Positions 42,515 to 58,006 of a stretch of 64,000 nucleotides of DNA are shown piece by piece. Below the pieces are notes generated by a model. It was given only the letters and a program-made list of their open reading frames with translations. It searched no databases and had not been told where the DNA came from. The stretch's first letter is position 1, and each line of letters begins with the position of its first letter. This stretch comes from Chitinophagaceae bacterium. GTDB lineage: Bacteria > Bacteroidota > Bacteroidia > Chitinophagales > Chitinophagaceae. Location: contig JAMLHL010000013.1 in assembly GCA_023957125.1 (NCBI GenBank), positions 1-64,000 on the forward strand, written 5' to 3'. The translations under genes were made by a program, and so were the position numbers.

Positions 42515-43528
42515 ATGAAATCATTCTCATTGTTATTTTCATTCCTCTTATTCGGGCTATCGGGGTTCTCTCAGCAAAATCCTGATACCTTACAAAAAGC
42601 AGGACAGGAATATATGCGTACCGGCGATTGGGGGAATGCTATCCTGGTATTTAACCGCGCGCTTCAGCTAAAACCCAACGATCTTAATATACTTAATGAT
42701 ATTGCTTACGCTTATTACCTGCAACGCGATTTTGCAAAAGCTTTGCAAACTATCAAACCGGTGATCGGGCGAAATGATGCCAACGTACAAAGCTTTCAGA
42801 TAGCCGGATCAGTGTATCGTTCCATCGAGGAGATAAAGGAAGGTTCCAAGGTGTATAAAAGGGGGCTGAAAAGATTTCCCAACAGCGGGGTATTGCACAG
42901 TGAATACGGTGAACTGCTCTGGCAGAACAAAGACTACAGCGCTATAAACCAGTGGGAAAAAGGAATTGCGGTGGATCCCAATTACCCCGGAAACTATTAC
43001 CACGCCTGTCGTTTTTATTACTTCACCACCAACCGGGTTTGGAGCCTGGTTTATGGGGAAATTTTTATAAACCTGGAAAGTTATACCGTCCGGACTGCCG
43101 AAATAAAAACCATCCTCTTCGATGGATACAAAAAACTATTTTCGGAAACGCCAGTACCGGGGGATCGAAAACAAAAAAAACAAAACGGTTTTGAAACGGC
43201 ATTCTTAAAAACTATGAACAACCAGGCTGCATTGGCCGCCAGGGGCATCACCCCCGGATCCCTTATCCCGATACGAAAGGACTTCCTTAACGACTGGTTC
43301 GGGAATAATGCCGCCCTTTATCCTTTCAGGCTGTTTGACTATCAGAAGCAATTACTGGAAGCGGGCATGTTTGAAGCGTATAACCAATGGATTTTTGGAT
43401 CTGCCATCCAGTCGGCTGATTATCAGGCATGGATACAGCAAAATAAGGAGGCATACGACACTTTTAACCATTTCCAGAGAGGCAGGGTATTTAAATTACC
43501 TAAAGGACAATATTACCAAAACCGTTAG
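42515..43528 (+). CDS. Tetratricopeptide-repeat protein
   Basis: A 337-residue protein. ATG 42515 gives a signal peptide (SFSLLFSFLLFGLSGFSQ). Residues 20-160 form about four TPR units (GQEYMRTGDWGNAILVFNRA, NDIAYAYYLQRDFAKALQTI, GSVYRSIEEIKEGSKVYKRG, YGELLWQNKDYSAINQWEKG). The C-terminal half (about 160-337) is an all-helical region (FYYFTTNRVWSLVYGEIFIN; HFQRGRVFKLPKGQYYQ at the end) that I do not recognise. TPRs scaffold protein interactions; the partner is unknown. Probably periplasmic. Confidence 0.85.
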   Translation: MKSFSLLFSFLLFGLSGFSQQNPDTLQKAGQEYMRTGDWGNAILVFNRALQLKPNDLNILNDIAYAYYLQRDFAKALQTIKPVIGRNDANVQSFQIAGSVYRSIEEIKEGSKVYKRGLKRFPNSGVLHSEYGELLWQNKDYSAINQWEKGIAVDPNYPGNYYHACRFYYFTTNRVWSLVYGEIFINLESYTVRTAEIKTILFDGYKKLFSETPVPGDRKQKKQNGFETAFLKTMNNQAALAARGITPGSLIPIRKDFLNDWFGNNAALYPFRLFDYQKQLLEAGMFEAYNQWIFGSAIQSADYQAWIQQNKEAYDTFNHFQRGRVFKLPKGQYYQNR

Positions 43529-55191: not shown

Positions 55192-56214
55192 TTAAAACAG
55201 CAGATTTTTGCCGGAGAAAACCTTTCCCAAATGCTCATACGCTTTTGGTGTAGCCTCCCGCCCGCGTGAAGTACGCATGATAAAACCCTGCTGGATCAGG
55301 AAAGGCTCATATACTTCTTCGATAGTGCCCTGCTCTTCCCCAACGGCGGTAGCAATAGTGGTGATACCTACGGGCCCGCCTTTGAATTTTTCTATGATCG
55401 TAGTAAGGATCCGGTTGTCCATTTCGTCCAGTCCGTGGGCGTCCACATTCAGCGCCTTGAGGGCATGACGGGTTATACCTTCGTCTATAATGCCATCATT
55501 AAGCACCTGGGCAAAATCTCTCACCCGGCGCAGCAGCCCATTGGCTATCCGGGGGGTACCCCTGCTTCTGCCGGCGATCTCTTCGGCCGCTTCATTGGAA
55601 ATGCCAACCTTTAATATACCCGCCGCACGGGAAATAATTTTCTTTAACACCGCCGCCTCATAATACTCCAGCCTGGATTTTATAGCAAAGCGTGAGAGCA
55701 ATGGCGCCGTCAGCAATCCGCTCCGGGTGGTAGCGCCGATCAGGGTGAAAGGGCTTAAGTTAATCTGGATACTGCGCGCGTTAGGCCCCGTATCTATCAG
55801 GATATCAATCCGGTAATCTTCCATTGCCGAATACAGATATTCTTCCACCACTGTGCTCAACCGGTGAATCTCATCTATAAAAAGCACGTCATTGGGCTGC
55901 AGATTGGTTAACAAACCGGCTAAATCGGCGGGCTTCTCAATTACCGGGCCGGAGGTCTCTTTGATATGTACCCCCATTTCATTAGCAACAATCCGGCTGA
56001 GCGTTGTTTTACCCAATCCCGGGGGGCCGTGAAACAGGATATGATCCAGGGCTTCTCCTCTTATCTTGGCCGCTTTGATAAAGATTTTTATGTTTTCAAT
56101 TACTTTATCCTGTCCGCTGAATTCAGCGATCTCATTAGGACGGATATTATTCTCAAATTCCCTTTCTATCGAACTGAGGGAATCTTTATCGGTATTTAAA
56201 TGGGGATTTTGCAT
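55192..56214 (-). CDS. ruvB: Holliday junction DNA helicase RuvB
   Basis: Hexameric AAA+ motor that drives branch migration with RuvA. The 340 residues are standard. Landmarks: [20 protein letters not shown]; Walker [13 protein letters not shown] (about 63-74); [20 protein letters not shown]; Walker [11 protein letters not shown]; sensor 1 [20 protein letters not shown] with the Arg finger; and the winged-helix C-terminus [20 protein letters not shown]. It is the last gene of the SCO-fur-ruvB run, nine bases after the fur stop. ruvA and ruvC are elsewhere. Confidence 0.98.
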
Positions 56215-56223
56215 TTTGGGATT

Positions 56224-56640
56224 TTAACTGCAGGTCTTGCATAAGCCACTGATCACCACTTCGGTCTGACGGCTTTGGTACCCCTCCGGCAGGCGGATCT
56301 CCGGCACATGCACTTCCTCCAGACAAATGGTGGTACCGCATTTTATACAAATAAAATGCACATGATCGTCGTGGTGATGCCCCTCTTCACAATTGTCTTT
56401 ACAGAGCGCGTATTTAACTGAATTATCAGCCGAAGGAATGGTATGGATGATCCCCTTTTCCATGAATGTCTGCAGGGTACGGTACACCGTTACCCGGTCG
56501 TATTTCTCGTCTGTTCCCGATTCAATATCATGATGGGCCAGGGCGCTGTCGCTTTGTAAAAAAAGCTCCAGGATTTCCCTTCGGCTGTCTGTTACACTCA
56601 GTTGGTTTTTTCTCAGCAAGTCTTCAATATGCGGTTCCAT
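56224..56640 (-). CDS. Fur-family metal regulator (Fur/Zur)
   Basis: A 138-residue Fur-type repressor. The N-terminal winged helix (LSVTDSRREILELFLQSDSA, YDRVTVYRTLQTFMEKGIIH) precedes the dimerisation domain with the metal-binding HHHDDHVHFICIKCGTTICL and two CxxC pairs (CIKC, CKTC) that form the structural zinc site. Fur and Zur cannot be told apart with certainty. Neighbours (SCO in the same operon, a divergent MerC-like gene with a palindromic promoter site) favour a Zur-like or general metal-sensing role; this is inference. No Fur-type box is seen at its own promoter. Confidence 0.93.
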   Translation of the reverse strand: MEPHIEDLLRKNQLSVTDSRREILELFLQSDSALAHHDIESGTDEKYDRVTVYRTLQTFMEKGIIHTIPSADNSVKYALCKDNCEEGHHHDDHVHFICIKCGTTICLEEVHVPEIRLPEGYQSRQTEVVISGLCKTCS

Positions 56641-56699: not shown

Positions 56700-57323
56700 T
56701 TAAACCGGTTTGGGATCCTTTTCTTTCAGCAATTCTTTAATATCGTTGATCATCTTGCCGATCTCATCCTTTTTCAAACCATCGTATATGCCTCTTACCC
56801 TGCCGCTTTTATCCACCAAAGCAAAGAACTGCGTATGCAGGAACTGCTCTTCAACATTGCCGGCATTATTATTCGGATCATCCAAAATATAACTTTCCCG
56901 GGCTGTTCTGTATAGGTTTTCCTTGGTTCCCGTCAAAAACCACCAGCTTTTTATGTCGGCGCCCAGGGAGTCGGCATATACTTTCAATCTTCCCACACTG
57001 TCCGTCTCGGGATCAACGGTATGGGAAAGGATCAGGAAATCATCCTCTCCTTTAAATGTTTCAAATACCTGCTTCATATTGCGGTTCATCTTGGGGCAGA
57101 TACCCTCACAGGTAGAATAAAAAAACTCGGCGGCATATACTTTGCCGGCAATATCATGTTCTGTAATATGTTTTCCATCCTGTCGCTCAAACGAAAAAGG
57201 CCGCACGTTATTCAATACGGGCAACAGGGATTTTGAGGAATCTATGGTAGCATTAAGAAAAGCATAGAATCCAACAAACAGCAAAACAAAAAAGCCAAGA
57301 TACATCCACGTTTTCCGCTTCAT
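56700..57323 (-). CDS. SCO1/SenC family copper chaperone/thioredoxin-like protein
   Basis: A 207-residue membrane-anchored thioredoxin-fold protein. One N-terminal helix (residues 6-25, WMYLGFFVLLFVGFYAFLNA) anchors it. The copper-binding/redox CxxxC is in FFYSTCEGICPKMNRNMKQV, and the conserved His is in EEQFLHTQFFALVDKSGRVR. SCO proteins deliver copper to the CuA site of cytochrome oxidase or act as disulfide reductants. No oxidase genes are nearby. It is the first gene of the SCO-fur-ruvB run, divergent from the MerC-like gene. Confidence 0.94.
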   Translation of the reverse strand: MKRKTWMYLGFFVLLFVGFYAFLNATIDSSKSLLPVLNNVRPFSFERQDGKHITEHDIAGKVYAAEFFYSTCEGICPKMNRNMKQVFETFKGEDDFLILSHTVDPETDSVGRLKVYADSLGADIKSWWFLTGTKENLYRTARESYILDDPNNNAGNVEEQFLHTQFFALVDKSGRVRGIYDGLKKDEIGKMINDIKELLKEKDPKPV

Positions 57324-57344: not shown

Positions 57345-57352
57345 CAAAGGTA
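57345..57352 (-). promoter_or_regulatory. SCO operon -7 box
   Basis: TACCTTTG on the minus strand, an exact TAnnTTTG match, with a leader of about 17-20 bases before the SCO ATG at 57323. No clear -33 box. Confidence 0.45.
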
Positions 57353-57563
57353 CAACTCAATCAGGTATAACCGGCTGATTGGGTAAATGCCAAATTTTTG
57401 TCATCCCTGTGTTGAGACACTATAACCATCAATTTATGCCTGCCGGTACGTGAGACGCGTACCAGGGGAAAAACAGCGGCCGCTTCCAACAAAAAGCATC
57501 TTATTAAAAGACCCAAAAGGGGTGCAGACCTAAAAACAAATATGTTTTATTAGAAAACTGTAA

Positions 57564-57588
57564 GATATTGCAACAATGTTGCAATATC
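57564..57588. promoter_or_regulatory. 25-bp palindromic operator (candidate Zur/Fur box)
   Basis: GATATTGCAACA-A-TGTTGCAATATC: two perfect 12-base arms around one central base. It covers the -33 position and spacer of the MerC-like gene promoter and ends four bases before the -7 box. A Fur-family gene is encoded one gene away. Length and symmetry fit a Fur-family dimer site; the metal is inferred. Confidence 0.65.
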
Positions 57589-57600
57589 TTCCTACATTTG
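57568..57600 (+). promoter_or_regulatory. Promoter of the MerC-like gene
   Basis: TTG (57568-57570) and TACATTTG (57593-57600, exact TAnnTTTG) are separated by 22 bases, slightly longer than the usual spacing. The predicted leader is about 15 bases to the ATG at 57620. The palindrome at 57564-57588 overlaps it. Confidence 0.55.
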
Positions 57601-57619: not shown

Positions 57620-58006
57620 ATGTTTCGGATCAATTACGACGCTCTTGGTATTGCGGCTTCTTTGGCCTGTGCCGTTCATTGTGCCATTCTTCCCCTGTTG
57701 CTCACCAGCCTGCCCATTTTCGGTATCAATATCATTGACAATTACCTGTTTGAATTCGGGATGATCGCACTGGCTTTCGCAGTGGGGATGGTAGCCCTGT
57801 ATCACGGATATAAAAAACACCATCATAAAACGGCGCCGGTTCTTTTCTTCAGCGCGGGGATCTCTTTTTTATTGTTAAAGGAGTTTTTTCATAATTATCA
57901 CATCCTCCTGCTGATCCCGGCAGTCCTGTTGATCGTAACTGCCCACTCCTTTAATTTTTTCCTTTGCCGGAAAGCGGGGCGCTATCATACCCAACACTGC
58001 CATTAA
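57620..58006 (+). CDS. MerC-domain membrane protein
   Basis: A 128-residue inner-membrane protein with four helices. The first helix carries the MerC-type cysteine pair in LACAVHCAILPLLLTSL; His-rich loops follow (HGYKKHHHKTAP) and a C-terminal CRKAGRYHTQHCH. MerC was described as a mercury transporter, but homologues in Bacteroidota occur in metal-homeostasis settings without other mer genes, as here. With the palindromic operator and neighbouring Fur-family gene, a role in zinc (or other transition metal) uptake is plausible; inference. Confidence 0.88.
   Translation: MFRINYDALGIAASLACAVHCAILPLLLTSLPIFGINIIDNYLFEFGMIALAFAVGMVALYHGYKKHHHKTAPVLFFSAGISFLLLKEFFHNYHILLLIPAVLLIVTAHSFNFFLCRKAGRYHTQHCH

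Follow-up and report, generated by a model that had tools for sequence, protein, structure and literature searches.

A conserved palindrome at a merC-like promoter in Chitinophagaceae as the predicted binding site of a Zur-type repressor

The promoter of a merC-like gene in a Chitinophagaceae genome carries a perfect 29-bp palindrome, to which, judging from sequence comparison, the Fur-family repressor encoded nearby almost certainly binds. Very probably this repressor is of the Zur type and responds to zinc, with the palindrome as its operator. The DNA analysed (64,000 nucleotides, referred to as the window) was compared computationally with related genomes, in which the box is conserved at the same place in the promoter and is absent from every merC promoter examined in a genome without the Fur-family gene.

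Results

Architecture of the merC promoter

A preliminary description of this DNA had reported a 25-bp palindrome with two exact arms, and GATATTGCAACA-A-TGTTGCAATATC was found at 57564-57588 exactly as claimed. The length needed revision: the symmetry runs on for two more bases on each side, giving the 29-mer AAGATATTGCAACA-A-TGTTGCAATATCTT, while the conserved part is the shorter TGCAAC-N3-GTTGCA (Table 1). With arms of 14 bases, the 29-mer is the longest perfect palindrome of the window and its sole odd-centred one whose arms exceed 8 bases, and it had no match in 100 dinucleotide-preserving shuffles. The palindrome had also been said to end just before a perfect -7 box, and indeed such a box, TACATTTG, starts two bases past the 29-mer and follows the Bacteroidota consensus TAnnTTTG (PMC9723704). 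A TTG within the left arm is the putative -33 element.

Table 1. Features of the merC-like locus in the window
Feature	Position	Strand	Basis
Perfect 29-bp palindrome, predicted Zur-type operator	57562..57590	.	sequence, conservation
Conserved core of the palindrome, TGCAACAATGTTGCA	57569-57583		
-7 box of the merC-like gene, TACATTTG, perfect TAnnTTTG	57593..57600	+	spacing kept in relatives
TTG in the left arm as candidate -33 element, 22 bp upstream of the -7 box	57568..57570	+	sequence
MerC-like membrane protein, PF03203, 128 aa, predicted target	57620..58006	+	Pfam
Fur-family regulator, 138 aa, predicted Zur-type repressor	56224..56640	-	Pfam, profile and structure comparison
SCO1/SenC protein, next to the regulator gene on the same strand, probably with a promoter of its own	56700..57323	-	Pfam
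ruvB, downstream of fur, bystander	55192..56214	-	Pfam
-7 box for SCO-fur, TACCTTTG, ~210 bp from the palindrome	57345..57352	-	sequence

Across 78 promoters of relatives, conservation is confined to TGCAAC and GTTGCA, which are separated by three bases, mostly A/T; the flanks of this core are A+T rich without fixed letters. The outer GATA/TATC extension was rejected as part of the motif, only its A+T richness being kept in relatives. Rewritten as TGCAACA-N-TGTTGCA, the core has the 7-1-7 geometry of Fur-family boxes, a layout listed for Zur boxes (PMC6103462). A perfect TAnnTTTG lies 4-9 bp downstream of the box in 69 of the 78 promoters (~3% expected from shuffles), so that the box occupies the interval separating the -33 from the -7 element.

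Conservation of the box in relatives

A search of 147 genomes from the host family for the exact string TTGCAACNNNGTTGCAA found 41 sites, distributed over 38 genomes, whereas the reversed control pattern gave none. Most of these sites are 18-46 bp upstream of a merC-like gene transcribed divergently from SCO-fur. Eighty named loci were compared (from Agriterribacter, Niabella, Niastella, Flavihumibacter, Sediminibacterium and others). The box precedes merC in 79 of them, in 75 with at most two mismatches, and stands 16-46 bp from the start codon. At two mismatches or fewer, no box was present in stretches of equal length taken downstream of merC. Because the box is conserved in the family, a chance origin of the palindrome is excluded. 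When 395 genomes from across the phylum were searched for the exact string, 21 of them yielded 22 sites and the control gave 5; several of the 22 were intragenic, so the string alone is unreliable outside the family.

The box is tied to the Fur-family gene

The sole named locus without a box (1 of 80; L199) belongs to a genome that has no Fur homologue, and the three named loci that have the box without an adjacent fur have a fur elsewhere in the genome. When a box was called at three mismatches or fewer, it was present in 83 of 83 merC promoters from Fur-bearing genomes of the family and in 0 of 4 from Fur-lacking genomes, whose best matches had 5-6 mismatches (p 4e-7, inflated by relatedness). 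These four Fur-lacking, merC-bearing genomes represent four different genera, and in two of them (L225 and L227) merC and SCO are still adjacent, fur alone being gone. Counted per genome with the strict pattern, a box was found in 68 of 112 genomes with Fur and 3 of 35 without (p 2e-8). Both p-values overstate independence because the genomes are related, and some Fur-lacking genomes are incomplete assemblies. Variants such as TTGCAACNNNGTTGCTT escape the strict pattern but are recovered by the three-mismatch promoter comparison. The box was also found upstream of fur paralogues, away from the merC locus.

Since the box is absent from merC promoters where the Fur-family gene is absent, it is tied to the Fur-family protein. 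Direct repression of merC by the adjacent protein, as the preliminary description had predicted, is strongly favoured by the core-promoter position of the box and by its loss together with fur.

Genes of the locus

Pfam searches confirmed the MerC, SCO1/SenC, FUR and RuvB assignments of the four genes, with the MerC-like protein scoring 78 bits (cut-off 27.6 for PF03203) and the regulator 54.2 bits (cut-off 23.1 for PF01475). The MerC-like protein has a conserved CxxHC motif close to its N-terminus. It had been suggested that the divergent SCO-fur-ruvB genes might be under the same box. This proposal was not supported: SCO-fur has its own -7 box about 210 bp away, and among relatives a divergent perfect -7 box near the operator was seen in only 10 of 78, at scattered distances. 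SCO-fur is thus probably outside the control of the palindrome, and for this genome its control of SCO-fur-ruvB was rejected on account of the distance and the separate -7 box.

The regulator resembles Zur

The predicted fold of the regulator aligns with Fur, Zur and PerR at Z 12-14; all of these, together with Mur and Nur, fall within the family in the structure search, which gave no separation of Zur from Fur or PerR. By sequence, the nearest solved proteins are the Zur proteins 2o03 and 4mtd. E. coli Zur has a sensor site B formed by His77, Cys88, His96 and Glu111 in addition to a Cys4 site (PMC4219657). The residues H66, C80 and H89 of the regulator, invariant in 14 homologues, align with His77, Cys88 and His96, while the fourth sensor ligand, Glu111, has no clear equivalent in the alignment. 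Two CxxC motifs (C98, C101, C134 and C137), likewise invariant in the 14 homologues, match the Cys4 structural zinc site. The regulator scored 40.9 bits against the E. coli-type Zur equivalog NF008646 (cut-off 167), and it is therefore not filed in that family, being described as Zur-like in its working only.

Box-bearing genes in the host genome and in relatives

The host genome (4.67 Mb in 56 contigs, 99.75% complete) was scanned by pattern searches; the one Fur-family gene found in it is that of the window. The exact TTGCAACNNNGTTGCAA occurs twice, in the merC-like promoter and at C1:155462. The second site precedes a gene for a 121-residue His/Cys-rich protein followed by a TonB receptor, and a -7-like box, TAACTTTG, overlaps its left arm. 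The strict predicted regulon of this genome comprises two units, merC and the pair of small His/Cys-rich protein and TonB receptor. The receptor matches ZnuD among other receptor models, below every cut-off, with heme-receptor models scoring above ZnuD. Profile searches of the host genome found no ABC-3 permease, ZIP or ZigA, and its own regulon is therefore without a textbook zinc gene.

Several weaker matches were set aside. Those with one mismatch to the 15-mer core at C1:144475, C4:6473, C23:152942 and C45:191560 lie inside coding sequences, and that at C19:40233 is without a metal-related neighbour; none was counted. Within the window, the match at 42732 has three mismatches and is at chance level.

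The preliminary description had proposed looking for the motif at other metal-related promoters, and in relatives it was found there. The box precedes ZigA-type GTPases (E 2e-174; 580 bits, just below the cut-off of 600), and in one genus a fur paralogue and a ZIP importer gene have a core box between them. At three mismatches to the 17-mer the ZIP boxes are weaker, and the majority of ZIP genes examined are without one; given the low fraction of ZIP genes with a box, ZIP was rejected as a general regulon member. TonB receptors accompanied by a His/Cys-rich small protein are also found behind the box in relatives. The presence of ZigA and ZIP behind the box points to zinc, as do the conserved His and Cys residues of the Zur sensor site, so that zinc, named beforehand as the likeliest metal, is most likely what the regulator senses.

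Further genes recur near the box. Five loci (L002 1130-1495, L032 1524-1868, L079, L092 and L220) encode short, seemingly secreted proteins that contain a His-rich stretch and end in a CxxC-like sequence, situated between the box and, mostly, a TonB receptor; they match no Pfam family, and that of L079 shows weak LpqS similarity. A thioredoxin-reductase-like FAD oxidoreductase, which is not a known zinc gene, stands repeatedly behind the box (L057, L065, L066, L076, L214, L217 and L218). In one of these cases (L214 3001-3054), a fur paralogue and the oxidoreductase gene flank a pair of boxes in inverted orientation with 37 bp between them. In L220 (1-12001), L221 and L224, a merC paralogue, a ZigA-type GTPase, an alkaline phosphatase, an ABC permease and a DUF3299-like protein form a cluster with one or two boxes.

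Discussion

Proposed mechanism and alternatives

We infer a mechanism in which a zinc-bound dimer would occupy TGCAAC-N3-GTTGCA between the -33 and -7 elements and, following established Fur-family practice, would block RNA polymerase at the merC promoter. Zinc shortage would release the repressor and allow the MerC-like membrane protein to be made, presumably in the service of zinc supply. The second unit, encoding the small His/Cys-rich protein and the TonB receptor, would be co-expressed with merC under the same shortage.

The Fur-family protein might bind the box in response to nickel (Nur-like), iron (Fur-like) or manganese instead of zinc, which we consider improbable. The box matches the Streptomyces Nur consensus TTGCAA-N5-TTGCAA almost letter for letter (PMC3919588), and nickel is kept as a minor rival because of this resemblance. 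The structure search, in keeping Fur, Zur, PerR, Mur and Nur within one family, would also accommodate another metal, as would an Nramp-like gene, recognised by eye, beyond a box-bearing fur paralogue in L080. However, the sensor His and Cys residues match those of Zur, the regulator is closer to Zur by sequence, its top matches being Zur structures, and the box-bearing genes of relatives include ZigA and ZIP; among the box-bearing genes inspected, a non-exhaustive set, no nickel enzyme or transporter and no Ni/Fe superoxide dismutase gene was seen.

It is far less probable that a regulator of another kind, for example of the LacI, MarR or ArsR type, binds the palindrome and that the Fur-family gene is a mere neighbour. 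Many dimeric repressors bind palindromes of such length, but the box disappears along with the Fur-family gene, even in L225 and L227 where merC-SCO is intact, and the box recurs at fur paralogues distant from merC. A transcription terminator or RNA hairpin is scarcely credible. Its inverted arms are perfect, as such a structure would have them, yet they are A+T-rich, enclose a one-base loop and come without a T run. Moreover, the palindrome lies a fixed distance ahead of a conserved -7 box, and its letters are conserved beyond what pairing alone would demand. A Zur-type operator thus remains the preferred reading.

Relation to known systems

The predicted system shares with Zur and its boxes in E. 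coli, Bacillus and Streptomyces the Fur fold, the Cys4 zinc site and three aligned sensor His/Cys residues, as well as a palindromic operator that overlaps the promoter and, in relatives, predicted control of zinc-starvation genes. It differs in its box, TGCAAC-N3-GTTGCA, A+T-rich boxes having been described for other phyla, and in its main target, a MerC-like protein in a host genome without znuABC or ZIP. The literature searched contained no Zur box for Bacteroidota, and some Zur reviews leave the phylum unmentioned. Within this group, the box offers a simple search string for zinc regulons. COG0523 proteins have been linked with Zur (PMC2770081); zinc chaperones of this ZigA/COG0523 kind are preceded by the same box in relatives, whereas ZigA is absent from the host genome.

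A possible role for MerC

The MerC-like protein belongs to the same PF03203 family as MerC of mercury-resistance operons and shares the CxxHC motif. In contrast to a mer operon, no merR, merT or merA is adjacent; it is surrounded instead by SCO, fur, ruvB and genes of the sugar-metabolism type, and the predicted operator is of the zinc type. A membrane protein named for mercury resistance is thereby indicated as a likely zinc gene, which opens the way to asking how bacteria without ZIP or ZnuABC import zinc. One lead comes from gene content, since the anticorrelation of merC and ZIP (genomes G000-G146) fits a replacement of ZIP by MerC, which may then act as a zinc importer. We tentatively suggest, as a proposition somewhat short of even odds, that the MerC-like proteins of the family are inner-membrane zinc importers that replace ZIP and ZnuABC and constitute the chief output of a Zur regulon of Bacteroidota type that has a box of its own. 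A ZIP gene was present in 19 of 100 genomes with merC and in 32 of 47 without it (p 1e-8; 147 genomes, lineage effects included), and with one genome per genus the corresponding counts were 11 of 69 and 20 of 31 (p 3e-6).
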